A stretch of DNA of 64,000 nucleotides. Source: Anaerosolibacter sp. (GTDB lineage Bacteria; Bacillota; Clostridia; Peptostreptococcales; Thermotaleaceae). Positions 3,097 through 12,156 of this stretch are shown piece by piece (the first letter of the stretch is position 1; every line of letters starts with the position of its first letter). The notes under the pieces are model-generated. The model did not search any database. It worked only from the letters and a program-made list of their open reading frames with translations, and was not told the DNA's origin. Location: positions 62,001-126,000 of the forward strand of contig NZ_JARBTM010000005.1 in the NCBI RefSeq assembly GCF_029240175.1, given 5' to 3'. The position numbers were made by a program, and so were the translations under genes.

Positions 3097-6006
3097 ATGA
3101 AAAAGACAGCAAAAATCACTATGTTTATTATTCTGGTTACGATGTTCCTGCATATGCTGCCTTCTGAAATTACTTCTAATGCAATGGCAGAAGATGAGAT
3201 GCGGGGAGTATGGGTGGCAACGGTGCTAAATATTGATTATCCATCCCAAGCAACCATCGAACCTGAGGTTCTGAAGAATGAAGCCGTGCAAACACTTGAC
3301 CATGCCGTTGATACGGGATTCAATGCTGTTTTCTTACAGGTTCGACCATCTTCAGATGCAATTTATAAATCAAAAATTTTTCCCTGGTCAAAGTATTTAA
3401 CTGGAGCCCAGGGGTTGGCACCGAAAGATGATTTTGATCCTCTAGAATTCTGGGTTGAAGAAGCCCATAAGAGGGGGATAGAATTGCATGCGTGGATTAA
3501 TCCTTATAGAGGAACAAAAAAAATAGCTGGAGAGCCAAATCATGACATAGCTGTACTAGATTCTTCAAATCCTATTCGTATGCATCCTGAATGGATCGTG
3601 AATCATTCTGATGGAAATCTATACTATGACCCAGGTCTTCCAGAGGTTAGAAAGCTAGTTATCGATGGTGTTTTAGAAATCATTGAGAATTACGATGTTG
3701 ATGGAATTCACTTTGATGACTATTTTTACCCAGGCAAGGACTTCAATGATAAAGAGACCTATGAGAAATATGGTGGAGCCTTCGGAAATATCAGCGATTG
3801 GCGAAGAGAAAATGTTAATATACTTATTCGAGAGTTATCTCAAGCTATAAAGAGCACAGGAAAAGATGTGAGATTTGGGATTAGTCCTGTGGGTATATGG
3901 GCAAATAAAAAAACAAATCCCTTAGGCAGTGATACCCAGGGGATGCAGGCATATTATGATCAATTCGCTGATTCGAGAAAATGGGTAAAAGAGAAATGGA
4001 TTGATTATATTGCACCTCAGATTTACTGGAATATTGGATACACAGCAGCAGATTATAGTAAATTATTGTCTTGGTGGAAGGCTACAGTCCAGGGTACAGG
4101 AGTAGACCTATATATTGGACAAGCAGCTTATCGGGCAGGAAATGCCAATCCATCCAGTCCATGGCATGGCAACTTGGAAATTGAAAGACAGCTTAAACTT
4201 AATGCGGATCATACGGAAATAAAAGGAAGCATCTTTTTTAGTCAAAAATCTTTGGTGAATAATCCAAGCCTTACTGCAATGATCACAGTTATGTATCAGC
4301 AGAAGGATGAAATGATTGCAAAGAAACCGCTAAGCATTTCGAGGCCCTCTGATAATATTCGAACAAGTTTAGAACAATTTTATTTGAATGGTTCTTCAGA
4401 CCCACAGCAGCCGCTGCTTGTGAATGGACAATCAGTGGATAATCGAACGAAACAGGGATATTTCGGCGTGCTTGTGCCCCTTATTGAAGGGGAAAATGAA
4501 TTTGTGTTTACCCAAGAGGGCACGCAAGTTATTCGGATAATCCATAGAGAGTCTTCTTCTACGACGCCAAAAGAAATGAACGAGGTAGAAATTCCTTCAG
4601 ATTCTGTTTTTCCACAATCTCAGCAGTACTGGACGTCGGGAGAAAAAATAACCTTCTCTTGCCAGGCACCCATGGGAGCAGATGTAACAGTGAAGATTGA
4701 TGGGAAAAGCTATGCTATGAAGCCATCAGGATTAGCACTCAAGGGAGAAAAAATTTATAAGGATACCTATACCTATGAATACACTATTTCTGACTATAAA
4801 GGTACACCCCGTAATATTGACCTAGGGGCGCCAGTATATACGATGAATTATAAGGGCACAGTAAATACACGAACGGCTCCTGAGAAGGTGGGTGTAATCA
4901 TGAAGAACTCCCCTTTCTATGCTGAAGTAATCAAGGAGGTCATAGACACCTATGGGGTACCGACTTCATCTAATGGAGCGGAGTACGAAATCTACAGTGG
5001 AATGACTGATTACATTACGGGCATGACAGGTAACTTTTTACGATTATCTTCAGGGCAATGGGTAAATAAGGAAGGTGTGAAAACCTATACAACACCAGCT
5101 CAATTGCAAGGGGAGGTTAAGGCTGCTGAATATAGCATAGGGGAAAAATGGGATACGCTTAAAGTGAACATTTCATCCCCAGTAACAGCATTTTCAGCTT
5201 TTGATGGAAGATCCATCAGTCTTGATATCTTAAATACTTCATCGGCAGTGAAACCCGTTTTGCCAGAGGGAGCTCTCTTCTCATCTGTTGACTTTGTAAG
5301 CAATGGCAATAAAGCACAATATATATTGACATTAAAAGATCGTCATAGGATTGACGGATATTACATCGAAAAAATAGATACGGGGCTGATGCTGCATGTC
5401 AAGAGACCAGTAGCTGCGAAGGAAGGAGCAACACCCCTTGCTGGAATAACAATCATGGTCGATCCGGGCCATGGAGGAAGTGATACAGGCGCCCAAGGTC
5501 CTTTAGGACAGGCGTACTCAGAAAAAATAATAAACCTAAATACTGCCATGAAGCTGCGGATAGAGTTGGAGAAACTTGGAGCCGATGTTCTGATGACAAG
5601 GACTGAGGACAAGAATGTAACCCTTCAAGAACGCCTTTCAGCCTCAAGAAGTGCGAAACCCGATCTGTTTATCTCCATCCATGGGAACAGTATGGGGGAC
5701 AATGTAGATATATCGAAGGTAGATGGATTCTCAGTCTTTTATCGAGAAAAATTTGCTCAGCACCTTTCAGAAGAAGTTTTGAATCATACGGTAAATAAAT
5801 TGGGGAGAAATAACAAAGGAATTCACAATAAAAATCTTTATGTTACCAGGGCTACATGGGCACCCTCTGTATTAATCGAAAGTGGGTTTGTACCCAACCC
5901 ATATGAGTTTGAATGGTTAATTAACAAAAACGAGCAAAAACGATTGGCAAAGACCATAGCAGATGCTGTTCTTCAATATTTTAGCATAAATAAGGATGTT
6001 GAATAA
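3097..6006 (+). CDS. GHL10-type glycoside hydrolase fused to N-acetylmuramoyl-L-alanine amidase
   Basis: This 969-residue secreted protein has a signal peptide (about 1-31). A family-10-like glycosyl hydrolase domain (YngK/DUF187 type) starts at MRGVWVATVLNIDYPS and runs to about residue 345, with VDGIHFDDYFYPG typical of its TIM barrel. A beta-rich middle of about 430 residues has no domain I can name. The C-terminus (about 784-965) is Amidase_3, with zinc ligands H792 (DPGHGG), E809 and H862 (SIHGNS) and catalytic E928. It should cut peptide stems from peptidoglycan, while the GHL10 part may act on glycan strands. The next gene overlaps its 3' end or abuts it, suggesting cotranscription. 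Confidence 0.85.
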   Translation: MKKTAKITMFIILVTMFLHMLPSEITSNAMAEDEMRGVWVATVLNIDYPSQATIEPEVLKNEAVQTLDHAVDTGFNAVFLQVRPSSDAIYKSKIFPWSKYLTGAQGLAPKDDFDPLEFWVEEAHKRGIELHAWINPYRGTKKIAGEPNHDIAVLDSSNPIRMHPEWIVNHSDGNLYYDPGLPEVRKLVIDGVLEIIENYDVDGIHFDDYFYPGKDFNDKETYEKYGGAFGNISDWRRENVNILIRELSQAIKSTGKDVRFGISPVGIWANKKTNPLGSDTQGMQAYYDQFADSRKWVKEKWIDYIAPQIYWNIGYTAADYSKLLSWWKATVQGTGVDLYIGQAAYRAGNANPSSPWHGNLEIERQLKLNADHTEIKGSIFFSQKSLVNNPSLTAMITVMYQQKDEMIAKKPLSISRPSDNIRTSLEQFYLNGSSDPQQPLLVNGQSVDNRTKQGYFGVLVPLIEGENEFVFTQEGTQVIRIIHRESSSTTPKEMNEVEIPSDSVFPQSQQYWTSGEKITFSCQAPMGADVTVKIDGKSYAMKPSGLALKGEKIYKDTYTYEYTISDYKGTPRNIDLGAPVYTMNYKGTVNTRTAPEKVGVIMKNSPFYAEVIKEVIDTYGVPTSSNGAEYEIYSGMTDYITGMTGNFLRLSSGQWVNKEGVKTYTTPAQLQGEVKAAEYSIGEKWDTLKVNISSPVTAFSAFDGRSISLDILNTSSAVKPVLPEGALFSSVDFVSNGNKAQYILTLKDRHRIDGYYIEKIDTGLMLHVKRPVAAKEGATPLAGITIMVDPGHGGSDTGAQGPLGQAYSEKIINLNTAMKLRIELEKLGADVLMTRTEDKNVTLQERLSASRSAKPDLFISIHGNSMGDNVDISKVDGFSVFYREKFAQHLSEEVLNHTVNKLGRNNKGIHNKNLYVTRATWAPSVLIESGFVPNPYEFEWLINKNEQKRLAKTIADAVLQYFSINKDVE

Positions 6007-6742: not shown

Positions 6743-7321
6743 TTACTGCTGTAATTTCGTTTCACCAGTTACCTTGCTGTTATCATCCATTTTGAAAGTA
6801 TCTTGAGCTTCCTTTGTAGTAAAGAATAGGTTGCCTTCAACCGTTGCATCAACAAGTTCAAAGTTTTGAGCAGAAACATAAACATCGCCTTTAAAAGTAC
6901 CGCTTTGAATTCTGGCATTAGGGCTATTGATTGTCAATTTTGGTGCTGTCAAAGTGAATCGTGCAGTTACTTTACGATTCTCATCTTGGGTGTAAAGGGC
7001 GATTTTACGTTGAATAATATCTTTACCCGCATCATCCTTCTTTCCATTTTTGAATTCTCCATCAAGAACAAGATCATTCTCTGTGGAGATGTCATTTACA
7101 GTAGCGATAAGCCATGTACCACTGTTGCTTATGGCTGCTTCAAAAGCTTCAGCATTGTCTACGATGGATGCTGTGGTGGTCACATCTGGTGTAGTTTCTG
7201 GCGGTGTTGTTTGTGGTGGTGGTGTTGGGTCTGGAGCAGGTGCTGGCGCAGGCTGCTGTGTACAGCCTACAAAAAGTGAAGTAATTAGAAAGAATGTTAA
7301 TAATAAAGCTTTAACTTTCAT
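6743..7321 (-). CDS. lipoprotein with Pro/Thr linker and beta-solenoid-like domain
   Basis: This 192-residue protein has a lipobox LFVGC, giving a lipidated C20. A Pro/Thr/Ala linker (about 22-50) is typical of proteins spanning the cell wall. The C-terminal 140 residues contain short repeated strand-like segments (LTINSPNARIQSGTFKGDVYVSAQNFELVDATVEGNLFF), suggesting a right-handed beta-helix somewhat like bactofilin-type folds. No catalytic motif is seen. AAGGAGG lies seven to eight bases before the ATG. It is monocistronic, divergent from the MerR regulator and convergent with the metallopeptidase. The function is unknown. Confidence 0.65.
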   Translation of the reverse strand: MKVKALLLTFFLITSLFVGCTQQPAPAPAPDPTPPPQTTPPETTPDVTTTASIVDNAEAFEAAISNSGTWLIATVNDISTENDLVLDGEFKNGKKDDAGKDIIQRKIALYTQDENRKVTARFTLTAPKLTINSPNARIQSGTFKGDVYVSAQNFELVDATVEGNLFFTTKEAQDTFKMDDNSKVTGETKLQQ

Positions 7322-9447: not shown

Positions 9448-10569
9448 ATGTTTGCTATAAAGAGAATTAGATACAAAAGCGCTTTAATCTTGATATTGGT
9501 GATTATTATGATGGTCTTCCCAGCGAGTAGAGGTTCTGGCTTAGTAGATTCCAGTTTAGAAGTACAGAAAAAGCTGGCTGAGATTTCTGATGAGGAAAGA
9601 GAAATTCTTCAAAACTTATTTACCATAACCCAGGAAATCAAGGAACTAGAGAAAGAAGAAGAAGAAATCTCCTTGGAGAAGGGTATTATTGTAGAGGAAA
9701 TTGAAGCTTTAAAAACGGTATTGAAAAATGAAACGATAGATTTTGAAAAAAAGAAAACCGTGTTAAAAGAGGTACTCAAGAGCTATCAAAGGAGAGGCCC
9801 AGGAACATATTTAGAGATTATTCTAGACTCGGACAGCCTGGTGAGTCTTCTAAGACGGATCAATGCTTTGCGTGATCTTACCCATAACACAGGGGAATTG
9901 CTTGATGGTTTGGAAGCAAGCAGAGGAAAACTAGCTATTGAAAAATCAGAATTAGAGGAAAAGCTAGCCTTAGCGGAAGAAAAACAAAAAGCTATAGATG
10001 AAACTTTAGGGAAAAAGTTACTGCGCATAAAAGACCTAGAGATTTATTTAGCATCACTTAAAGATGAAAAAGATTATTATCAAGGACAACTAGGGAATAT
10101 TGAAAAGATGTGGGAGGAGCTCAAGGTTGTTTTCATGGATATTTCTCAAGAATTCTCTTCTATGATTGAATCTAATAATCTACCACCAAAAGCTATAAAA
10201 ATGAGCATTTCTTTATTTGGGGTAAAAGGATCTGTAGAGGAACAAGTATTTAACGAAATAATTGTAGACAATCCTCGCCTTCCAAAGTTGACCCTTTATT
10301 TTTATCCAGGCCAGGTTAAAATGGATATACCTGAAAAGAATCTTGTACTGACAGGGACATTTATTATTGTAGAAGGGAACAAGCTGCAGTTTAATGTTGA
10401 TGAAGGCAGTTTCTATGGGATTGCTTTGGGTCACGGGGCCTTGGAGGACTTGATGGAAGGTGGCTATCCTACTTTGGATCTGAAACCATTGTTAGGTAAT
10501 TATGTGATGAAGTCTTTGCAAATAGAAGAGGGACAATTAGAATTTGTAGTAACACCTAAATCATTTTAG
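9448..10569 (+). CDS. secreted or anchored coiled-coil FtsEX partner without a hydrolase domain
   Basis: This 373-residue protein has a signal or anchor segment (about 12-32) and long heptad-rich helices (about 35-115 and 140-235). They include SYQRRGPGTYLEIILDSDS, then LRRINALRDL, resembling the coiled-coil domain of PcsB/CwlO/EnvC. Those proteins are held and activated by FtsX and normally carry, or recruit, a peptidoglycan hydrolase. Here the C-terminal part (about 240-373) is beta-rich with no NlpC/P60, CHAP or M23 catalytic motif. GAGAGGAG precedes the ATG. It is followed after 23 bases by ftsE, so the three genes form an operon. It may activate a hydrolase encoded elsewhere. Confidence 0.7.
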   Translation: MFAIKRIRYKSALILILVIIMMVFPASRGSGLVDSSLEVQKKLAEISDEEREILQNLFTITQEIKELEKEEEEISLEKGIIVEEIEALKTVLKNETIDFEKKKTVLKEVLKSYQRRGPGTYLEIILDSDSLVSLLRRINALRDLTHNTGELLDGLEASRGKLAIEKSELEEKLALAEEKQKAIDETLGKKLLRIKDLEIYLASLKDEKDYYQGQLGNIEKMWEELKVVFMDISQEFSSMIESNNLPPKAIKMSISLFGVKGSVEEQVFNEIIVDNPRLPKLTLYFYPGQVKMDIPEKNLVLTGTFIIVEGNKLQFNVDEGSFYGIALGHGALEDLMEGGYPTLDLKPLLGNYVMKSLQIEEGQLEFVVTPKSF

Positions 10570-10592
10570 TACAGGGCTAGGAGGAGAACAAC

Positions 10593-11261
10593 ATGATCGA
10601 AGCACAAGGTGTTTGTTTAAAATATGGGGATGGAACGGTAGCATTAAACGATGTTGACTTACAAATTGACTATGGTGAGATGGTATATATTACTGGGCCC
10701 AGCGGTTCTGGAAAGACAAGTCTTCTAAAGCTTCTTATGGCGGTAGAATACCCTACATCAGGGTCTTTAAGGGTATTAGGTCAATGTATGAAGCCAAATC
10801 ATGAAATAGATATTCAGAGATTGAGAAGGCGTATTGGCCCTGTATTCCAAGAGTTCAAGCTCATAAAGGGAAGAAGTGCCATGGAGAATGTGATGTTAGG
10901 TATGCGCTTTCTAGATATACATCCCAATAAGATAAAAGAAGATGCCTATCATGCGCTTGTAAAGGTGGGACTAGCACATAAACTGTCCGCCTCAGTAGAA
11001 AATCTATCTTGGGGTGAAAGCCAGCGAGTTGCCATTGCCAGGGCAATCGCTAGAAAACCAGCGCTTATTTTAGCCGATGAACCTACGGGTAATTTGGACA
11101 CAGACAATGCTTTAAATATATTGGAGCTTTTGGCCTCCCTAAAAGATGAACAGACATCCGTAGTGATTACTACCCATGCAACCCACTTAATTGATGATAG
11201 AAACCTCGACAAACTTATTCAGGTTGATGGTGGGCGTGTTTGCTGTGAAAGGCTGGGATAA
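10593..11261 (+). CDS. ftsE: cell-division ABC transporter ATPase FtsE
   Basis: This 222-residue ABC ATPase has Walker A GPSGSGKTS (about 36-44), Q-loop VFQEFKL, Walker B ALILADEPTGNLD and an H-loop TTHATH. The signature is LSWGESQR rather than the usual LSGGEQQR, an unusual Trp in place of the first Gly. FtsE drives FtsX conformational changes that switch on peptidoglycan hydrolases at the septum or side wall. AGGAGGAG lies seven bases before the ATG. The next gene, ftsX, begins two bases after its stop codon or a few codons later, so translation is coupled. Confidence 0.88.
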   Translation: MIEAQGVCLKYGDGTVALNDVDLQIDYGEMVYITGPSGSGKTSLLKLLMAVEYPTSGSLRVLGQCMKPNHEIDIQRLRRRIGPVFQEFKLIKGRSAMENVMLGMRFLDIHPNKIKEDAYHALVKVGLAHKLSASVENLSWGESQRVAIARAIARKPALILADEPTGNLDTDNALNILELLASLKDEQTSVVITTHATHLIDDRNLDKLIQVDGGRVCCERLG

Positions 11262-11262
11262 T

Positions 11263-12156
11263 GTGAAGATGAAAAATTTTTTAAATAATATAGGATATTT
11301 TGTTAGAGAGGCGAAAACGACCATCAGATTAGATCTAACGTCTAATATTTTTTCACTTTTCAGTACCACGTTGATTTTCTTTATCCTTGCCATGGTCATA
11401 TCTGGATGGTGGATGAGCAACCAAGTTATTGAAGTCATTCAAGGCGAAGCAGAAATAAATGCTTATTTCGATGAGCAACTTGAAAAGAAAGATATAATAG
11501 AGCTGGTTGAAAGTATGAATTCCATAAAGGGTGTGGAGGCAGCGCGATTGGTGGGTGAAGATGAAGCCTATGGGCGTATGGCAGAAATTCTAGGGAAGGA
11601 TGCTCAGGTATTGGCGTATTTTGAGGATAATCCCTTCCATTCATTCGTAGAAGTAAAGATCCACTTGGATGAAATGGATTCTGTTCTATCCCACATAAGC
11701 GCCATGGAGGGGGTTTCCTATGTAAGGGACAACAGGGAAGTTTTAGAACGTCTTCATCACATAGCGGGAATATTGGAACTGCTAGGGTATGTGGTGGTAG
11801 GCGCTGTAGGAATATCCACTTTGGTTATTATATCCCATATCATTCGACAGGGGATATACAGCAATAGGGAACAAATAAATACCCTAAGGCTTCTTGGTGC
11901 CCCTGAAATGTTTATAGCGTTCCCTTTCGTATTGGAAGGATTGTTTCTATCGGCAGCAGGGGGGAGTTTGGCGGTAGTGTTGGCAGGCTTCTCCATAAAA
12001 TATATGTATGTTCAAATGGCTGGGCCTCTTCCCTTTATTCCATTACCTTCCCAGGAAGTGTTGATAGTGAATATGGGGATATTGATCATAGGACTAAGTG
12101 CCTGCATGGGTATCATAGGAAGTATGATGGGGTTATCATCGGCAAAGAAAAATTAA
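11263..12156 (+). CDS. ftsX: cell-division ABC transporter permease FtsX
   Basis: This protein of about 297 residues has the FtsX plan: a cytoplasmic N-terminus, TM1 (STTLIFFILAMVISGWW), an extracellular domain of about 110 residues that would contact the coiled-coil partner, then three C-terminal TM segments. REQINTLRLLGAPEMFIAFPFVLEG is the family's conserved coupling region. The start is GTG at 11263 or ATG at 11269 (MKNFLNNIGYF, more typical). The frame extends upstream inside ftsE, but that is unlikely to be used. Together with ftsE and the coiled-coil protein it forms a transmembrane switch for wall hydrolysis. Confidence 0.88.
   Translation: MKMKNFLNNIGYFVREAKTTIRLDLTSNIFSLFSTTLIFFILAMVISGWWMSNQVIEVIQGEAEINAYFDEQLEKKDIIELVESMNSIKGVEAARLVGEDEAYGRMAEILGKDAQVLAYFEDNPFHSFVEVKIHLDEMDSVLSHISAMEGVSYVRDNREVLERLHHIAGILELLGYVVVGAVGISTLVIISHIIRQGIYSNREQINTLRLLGAPEMFIAFPFVLEGLFLSAAGGSLAVVLAGFSIKYMYVQMAGPLPFIPLPSQEVLIVNMGILIIGLSACMGIIGSMMGLSSAKKN

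Follow-up and report, generated by a model that had tools for sequence, protein, structure and literature searches.

A second FtsEX-type operon in Anaerosolibacter with a coiled-coil partner that probably ends in a TULIP-like, lipid-binding-fold domain

A three-gene operon occupies positions 9448–12156 of a 64,000-nucleotide stretch of DNA (the window) from Anaerosolibacter sp., contig NZ_JARBTM010000005.1. It is headed by a coiled-coil gene (gene 1) followed by genes for an FtsE-like ATPase and an FtsX-like subunit, which we call ftsE2 and ftsX2, "FtsEX2" being our name for the type found in the window. The operon is a second FtsEX, separate from the canonical FtsEX of the same genome, and gene 1 probably encodes an arm that is driven by FtsX and bears a lipid-binding fold, and not a hydrolase or a degenerate peptidase of the EnvC type; this reading is based on a profile relation to LmeA and the TULIP proteins, on the structural model, and on a negative result with M23 domains. 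On balance we favor the view that the operon specifies a second, specialized mechanotransmitter of the FtsEX type (type VII of the ATP-binding cassette, or ABC, systems), whose TULIP arm would serve lipid handling. The identities of the parts are well supported; the lipid function is what we infer.

Gene 1 (9448–10569, + strand) is an open reading frame of 373 amino acids. Its product begins with a hydrophobic stretch (roughly residues 1–30; 9448–9537, +) that we read as a signal peptide or membrane anchor and that is modeled as a helix over residues 3–23, continues with a PcsB-type coiled-coil hairpin (residues 48–238, with a tip helix at 117–126; 9589–10161, +), and ends in an LmeA/TULIP-like domain, as predicted (residues 250–370; 10195–10557, +). 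The second gene, ftsE2 (10593–11261, +; 222 amino acids), matches ABC_tran (PF00005, E = 5e-33) and carries the signature motif LSWGESQR; stretches that look like its Walker motifs were picked out by eye. The third, ftsX2 (11269–12156, +), matches both FtsX_ECD (PF18075, E = 2.8e-11, 44.3 bits against a cut-off of 23.5) and FtsX (PF02687, E = 7.4e-7, 29.7 bits against 25.5) in the Pfam scan. As listed, this open reading frame spans 11191–12156 (+, 321 amino acids), and translation might instead begin at the in-frame TTG at 11191; we prefer the ATG at 11269 because the resulting 295 amino acids equal the median length of the relatives. Against NCBIfam, FtsE2 scores 225.6 bits with the FtsE model TIGR02673, below its equivalog cut-off of 264.85, and FtsX2 likewise falls short with TIGR00439 (146 of 255 bits), NF038347 (137.1 of 225), and NF038346 (86 of 250). 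The window pair thus stays below the curated thresholds by which NCBIfam defines the FtsE and FtsX of cell division proper.

The coiled coil of gene 1 is recognizably of the PcsB kind. CC_PcsB (PF24568) matches residues 99–159 above its cut-off (E = 5.4e-7, 29.8 bits against 27), and in a sequence-profile search of the PDB the PcsB structure 4cgk aligns with profile positions 5–209 (E = 4.8e-10). The AlphaFold model of the full-length protein (mean predicted local distance difference test score, pLDDT, 81.1; predicted TM-score, pTM, 0.61) has helices at residues 3–23, 48–115, 117–126 (the tip), 131–205, and 208–238, with the TULIP-like domain after them; residues 24–35 have pLDDT below 50. A Foldseek search with this model places PcsB first and second and has RipA, EnvC, and RipC in the top 20, in a list whose best E value is 2.5e-3 and which also includes unrelated coiled coils. 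The VIA comparison of the same model gave, among the matches listed, coiled coils of PI3K p85 with Z up to 13.0, for which VIA warns that a helical arrangement of a common kind may be the cause, and Foldseek was used instead for the full-length protein. FtsX contacts PcsB by an outer loop that binds its coiled coil (PMC6355983), and the coiled coil of gene 1 would be expected to be the corresponding FtsX-binding arm.

It is the domain beyond this arm that sets the protein apart. The preliminary description of the locus, made from sequence alone, had proposed a coiled coil of the PcsB/CwlO type heading an FtsE/FtsX operon, with no hydrolase domain in its C-terminal 130 or so residues. Both points are confirmed: the reading frames are present with matches to PF24568, ABC_tran, FtsX_ECD, and FtsX, and no peptidoglycan-hydrolase domain (CHAP, NlpC/P60, or M23) was found in Pfam scans of gene 1 and its relatives. 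The C-terminal domain itself, the approximately 130 residues that follow the coiled coil, matches no Pfam family when scanned alone (none of seven members at E ≤ 10, and the window member not at E ≤ 1). A known catalytic domain was looked for by sensitive profile search and did not emerge, the alignment to M23 reaching only 0.1% in hhalign. That the domain is a degenerate or unrecognized peptidoglycan hydrolase, the operon then being an ordinary FtsEX-hydrolase set, is accordingly very improbable. Hydrolase systems do have a coiled coil and an operon of this type, and hydrolase models in NCBIfam do match gene 1, among them the PcsB model NF046104 (residues 40–204, E = 1.3e-8, 34.4 bits against a cut-off of 450) and an NlpC/P60 protein model (residues 87–185, E = 0.0012, far below cut-off); these matches are confined to the coiled coil, and the modeled C-terminal domain is of the TULIP type.

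A positive identification is suggested by comparison of profiles. An alignment of the window C-terminal domain with 45 named operon C-domains (A5), used as a profile to search genomes, recovered five standalone proteins (E = 3.3e-8, 4.7e-6, 1.3e-5, 7.8e-4, and 0.0059), all of which, at 229–268 amino acids as read, match LmeA (PF11209) above cut-off with E values from 5.8e-18 to 3.2e-21. Aligned with these five by hhalign, the operon C-domains score 96.8% (E = 3e-10, 108 columns). Because the LmeA set had itself been recruited by the A5 profile, shuffle, reversal, and half controls were run: the reversed LmeA alignment scores 0.5%, the best of 50 column-shuffled copies 2.4%, and the comparison with 10 M23 domains gives the 0.1% already mentioned, while the two halves of the operon set, taken separately, score 96.7% and 96.6%. 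The relation lies with one half of LmeA, its C-terminal half scoring 97.2% and its N-terminal half 0.15% against the operon C-domains. It is this C-terminal part in which the TULIP domain of DUF2993 sits (Levine 2019, PMC6791001). Among 13 more distant coiled-coil members, seven match PF11209 below cut-off (E = 2.9e-4 to 0.054), with alignments running from position 91–97 to position 213–216 of the 217 in the model. When the C-domain was searched against the PDB by sequence profile, the matches were weak and scattered (best E = 0.048 and 0.35). The LmeA comparisons, not fully independent of one another, indicate that the C-terminal domain is, by its profile, distantly related to the TULIP half of the LmeA/DUF2993 phospholipid-binding proteins. 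As a separate observation, the five standalone LmeA genes (L176–L180) have a common gene neighborhood; judged by eye, its flanks look like a prfB-like gene on one side and a gene of ~630–680 amino acids on the other.

The predicted fold leads in the same direction. AlphaFold2 run on A5 gives a model with pLDDT 88.2 and pTM 0.82, for which VIA-align lists YceB (Z = 7.4, 117 residues aligned), BPI (7.3, 132), and CETP (6.0, 129), followed by P47 (5.9 and 5.1), a chain of the VtrA/VtrC complex (5.0, 79), BPI again (5.0), and LBP (4.7). TULIP proteins thus make up seven of the top eight rows, and the lower rows, which begin at Z = 4.0, belong to proteins of other types. The best Foldseek match of this model is also BPI (E = 3e-3, probability 0.47). 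The VIA ranking, which at Z values below 8 is no proof of fold alone, agrees with the sequence evidence for a TULIP-type domain. Structure prediction and search of this domain had been proposed in the preliminary description, which left open whether gene 1 is an activator in the manner of EnvC or carries a new type of effector. The second of these alternatives is the one that stands, whereas the narrow analogy to EnvC is not supported (M23 at 0.1%, LmeA at 96.8%), and descent of the domain from a degenerate M23/LytM module of the EnvC type is rejected on the same M23 comparison. The activator interpretation of that description is, in sum, partly supported.

A search of the window genome, which totals 3.87 Mb on 50 contigs, turned up two FtsX_ECD genes. 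The other and stronger of the two sits in a set of ftsE, ftsX, and a coiled coil-M23 gene, and its M23 domain retains the H...D and HLH residues conserved among 10 aligned M23 domains, which we take to be catalytic. Because this canonical set exists elsewhere in the genome, the window FtsEX is not the main FtsEX of the cell. The two kinds are well separated in sequence. In an FtsX tree of 54 rows, unrooted and accompanied by a long-branch warning from the tool, the 32 window-type and 22 canonical rows lie on opposite sides of a single branch with 100/100 support. The ATPases differ as well, an aromatic residue standing in the ABC signature of the window type: LS[W/F/Y]G[E/Q] is found in 58 of 60 window-type FtsE rows (LSWGE in 49, LSFGE in six, LSWGQ in two, LSYGE in one, with two unmatched by the pattern) versus LSGGE in 21 of 21 canonical ones, the rows being partly non-independent in that some loci were fetched twice. 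Of 80 known operon-type genomes, 61 were searched, and 55 have at least two FtsX_ECD genes. A single such gene is present in the remaining six (G074, G096, G113, G722, G1067, and G1108), three of which are less than 90% complete.

The operon recurs across a limited set of Bacillota. A full-length profile finds relatives of gene 1 in 30 of 393 order-level genomes (E < 1e-44), the weaker matches among those listed reaching at most position 245 of 373, that is, the coiled coil. A search by C-domain profile leaves 36 of 391 class-level genomes once one spurious match is removed (G739 with a fragment only), and a strong group comprises 16 of 398 genomes at the phylum level; all three counts include the window genome. 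Two weak matches were dropped, one in G727 (class level, an 855-amino-acid frame, E = 6.2e-4), in which the matching stretch has no A5 profile match, and one in G1134 (E = 0.0018), a 316-amino-acid reading frame of different character. A single-protein query of genome contigs returned no relative, and a later search with an alignment (A4) yielded 46 loci. The nearest named relative is from Anaerosolibacter carboniphilus (61% identity), others coming from Alkaliphilus, Geosporobacter, Natronincola, Lutispora, a Desulfosporosinus bin, and Petroclostridium. A mobile origin was considered and set aside, the full protein having no match in a plasmid collection and the C-domain none in a phage collection.

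Throughout these relatives, ftsE2 lies immediately 3' of gene 1. The counts are 58 of 59 at the order and class levels (a set that leaves out six class-level places), 15 of 15 at the phylum level, and 45 of 46 among the named loci, both loci without it (L073 and L141) stopping at a contig end. The only gene clusters common to most loci are the three genes themselves, present in 47, 46, and 44 of 47 loci, the ATPase count also including other ABC ATPases; the next most widespread cluster is near only six of the 47. Since the unit recurs across loci, the three-gene arrangement is beyond chance.

Around this unit the neighborhood is variable. In the window, a fusion of GHL10 glycosidase-like and Amidase_3 domains (Pfam) lies at 3097–6006 (+), and a lipoprotein-like gene with no Pfam match at E ≤ 0.01 lies at 6743–7321 (−), its cluster occurring near the operon in five of 47 loci. 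Elsewhere, a glucosaminidase cluster is near the operon in four of 47 loci (the one member checked matches PF01832 at E = 1.2e-33) and a RelA/SpoT-type cluster in five of 47 (one member checked); L106 (8705–10784, +) is among the loci concerned. The best-spread cluster, that near six of 47 loci, resembles sensor kinases by eye, and other clusters judged in this way are response-regulator-like (three loci) and MerR-like (four loci).

These neighbors bear on two other accounts of the system. In the first, the TULIP-fold head would recruit or activate a separate wall hydrolase when FtsEX2 fires, as EnvC does, and no lipid would be moved. We regard this as unlikely, though deserving of serious consideration: the described partners of FtsEX act on peptidoglycan (PMC11627006), and wall hydrolases do lie near some operons, namely the glucosaminidase and the GHL10-amidase, yet no hydrolase family recurs in most loci, and the domain is related to a lipid-binding family and not to M23. 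The amidase partner suggested in the preliminary description was not borne out as a conserved neighbor, the GHL10-amidase fusion being near the operon in only four of the 46 other named loci. In the second account, less probable again, the domain would read an outer-leaflet lipid or lipid-linked precursor and signal through FtsEX2, or time wall synthesis, with no transport. The domain evidence is identical to that for lipid handling, the type VII system BceAB works with a sensor kinase (PMC12646458), and the clusters of regulatory appearance just described would fit; all of these clusters, however, lie outside the three-gene unit and are absent from the majority of loci. A sporulation-specific FtsEX, for engulfment or cortex for example, might be entertained given that spoIVA is present in the window genome, but spoIVA is as frequent in genomes with FtsEX2 (12 of 30) as in the rest of the order (146 of 363; p = 1.0 by Fisher test), and this alternative has very little to recommend it.

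Gene 1 also has relatives that stand alone. Weaker C-domain relatives are found in 24 of 398 phylum-level genomes, in reading frames of 355–421 amino acids. All 17 of the loci read (of the 24) match a coiled-coil-only profile in addition to the C-domain, with E values of 2.7e-6 to 1.8e-17 that coiled-coil composition may inflate, and all 17 proteins start with a hydrophobic stretch. By hhalign these orphan C-domains score 98.8% against LmeA and 99.3% against the operon C-domains. Exactly one FtsX_ECD gene is present in 17 of 18 orphan genomes tested, and the single FtsEX region, read in 11 orphan genomes, includes a coiled-coil-type M23 gene in nine, none being labelled in L199 and L204. The coiled coil-TULIP protein therefore has two settings, and in the operon form it brings its own FtsEX.

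With these results in hand, a working sequence for the favored lipid-handling system can be put forward. ATP hydrolysis by FtsE2 would change the shape of FtsX2, the outer domain of which would hold gene 1 by its coiled-coil arm, in the way that FtsX holds PcsB, RipC, and EnvC. This arm is predicted to bear the TULIP-like domain in place of the catalytic domain of the division hydrolases, and the ATP cycle might then move or open that domain on the outside of the membrane. Most likely, the TULIP-like head would take up, present, or release a lipid or a lipid-linked envelope precursor, and the whole would amount to a lipid-handling counterpart of FtsEX-PcsB in single-membrane bacteria. What is directly supported is which genes are present, that the operon is conserved, the distant homology and predicted fold of the C-domain, and the split from canonical FtsEX; binding to FtsX2, coupling to ATP, lipid binding, the ligand, and the direction we infer.

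Several observations weigh against this proposal. The window C-domain itself has no PF11209 match in a single-sequence Pfam scan, and among the 46 operon C-domains only two do, below cut-off (best E = 0.028). The N-terminal, Chorein-N-like half of LmeA is missing from the gene 1 domain. In the structural comparisons, Foldseek finds nothing in the PDB at E ≤ 0.001 for the C-domain model, and all of the VIA Z values lie in the range, below 8, where the tool cautions about common arrangements. Across the 47 loci, with a minority of the neighbor clusters identified, no lipid or lipoglycan synthesis family is prominent beside the operon. Finally, neither FtsE nor FtsX lies beside the gene in any of the 17 orphan loci read (L161–L174, L181, L182, and L184), and one orphan genome of the 18 tested, G837, has no FtsX_ECD match; a dedicated FtsEX2 is therefore not always needed.

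Two further FtsEX variants were encountered. In genomes G992 and G1038 there is a third FtsEX, the partner of which joins a PcsB-type coiled coil to DUF3048 (L211, 1374–2864, −; L215, 3779–5179, +), with E values of 1.3e-10 and 1.6e-11 for CC_PcsB and 1.8e-35 and 2e-36 for DUF3048. At L189 and L190 (G521 and G543), a canonical-type FtsEX is followed by a CtpB-like S41 protease with a PDZ domain and not by a coiled coil-M23 gene. The occurrence of M23, TULIP, and DUF3048 partners suggests an FtsEX platform with exchangeable outer tools. Tentatively, and with rather less assurance than the lipid-handling reading itself, one may extend this to the proposal that FtsEX is such a platform in general and that FtsEX2 is an ATP-powered lipid or lipoglycan machine re-tooled from a division machine.

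FtsEX has been described as a switch for peptidoglycan hydrolysis (PMC11627006), and FtsEX-hydrolase systems are already known; an FtsEX system with a probable lipid-binding-fold effector would be a variant of these. No paper joining FtsEX or FtsX with LmeA, DUF2993, or TULIP was found among the matches listed, in a search that covered few subscription papers, and no second FtsEX of this kind is described in the titles and abstract openings of the matches listed. Some anaerobic bacteria, then, have the usual wall-cutting FtsEX together with a second FtsEX whose arm has a predicted lipid-carrier fold, which hints at the handling of membrane lipids. If this is true, the mechanotransmission core of FtsEX also serves an envelope task other than wall hydrolysis, and FtsEX is linked with those relatives in its ABC superfamily that handle lipids. 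Movement or sensing of lipids on the outer side of single-membrane bacteria would become testable, and LmeA-like domains would gain a concrete, testable role.

Compared with FtsEX-PcsB, -CwlO, and -RipC, the FtsEX2 system has the same three components, an FtsE-like ATPase, an FtsX-like subunit with an extracellular domain, and a secreted partner with a coiled coil that aligns with PcsB. It differs in that the C-terminal domain of gene 1 is TULIP-like, by prediction, and not CHAP, NlpC/P60, or M23; in RipC, the hydrolase domain is released on ATP binding (PMC11627006). The gene order is also different, the partner gene lying 5' of ftsE in FtsEX2 and 3' of ftsX in the canonical set, and FtsE2 and FtsX2 are divergent, with a further FtsX_ECD gene in 55 of the 61 genomes tested. 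The LytM/M23-type domain of EnvC is degenerate. Like EnvC, gene 1 would place a coiled-coil arm on FtsX and has no hydrolase domain of its own; unlike gene 1, the C-domain of which aligns with M23 at 0.1%, EnvC possesses a LytM domain (PMC11627006). The C-domain resembles LmeA/DUF2993 (PF11209) and other bacterial TULIPs (YceB, DUF2140, P47) in profile and predicted fold. LmeA is reported to bind phospholipid and to matter for lipomannan in mycobacteria (PMC7643837); gene 1, in contrast, appears to have the TULIP half only, lacks a match above the Pfam cut-off, and is fused to a coiled coil of the FtsX type. The third FtsEX of G992 and G1038 likewise combines a PcsB-type coiled coil with a domain not known as a hydrolase, but there the effector is DUF3048, the FtsX falls on the canonical side, and the FtsE has LSGGE. 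The nearest parallels in proposed logic are the type VII ABC systems LolCDE-LolA and YbbAP-TesA, whose substrates are lipoproteins or, by proposal, lipids (PMC12646458) and which we count as precedent for a lipid-handling reading of FtsEX2: each would unite a type VII ATPase, a membrane-embedded lipid, and an outer partner, although in FtsEX2 the subunits are FtsE- and FtsX-like, the partner is a predicted coiled coil-TULIP protein, and the hosts are Bacillota and not E. coli.

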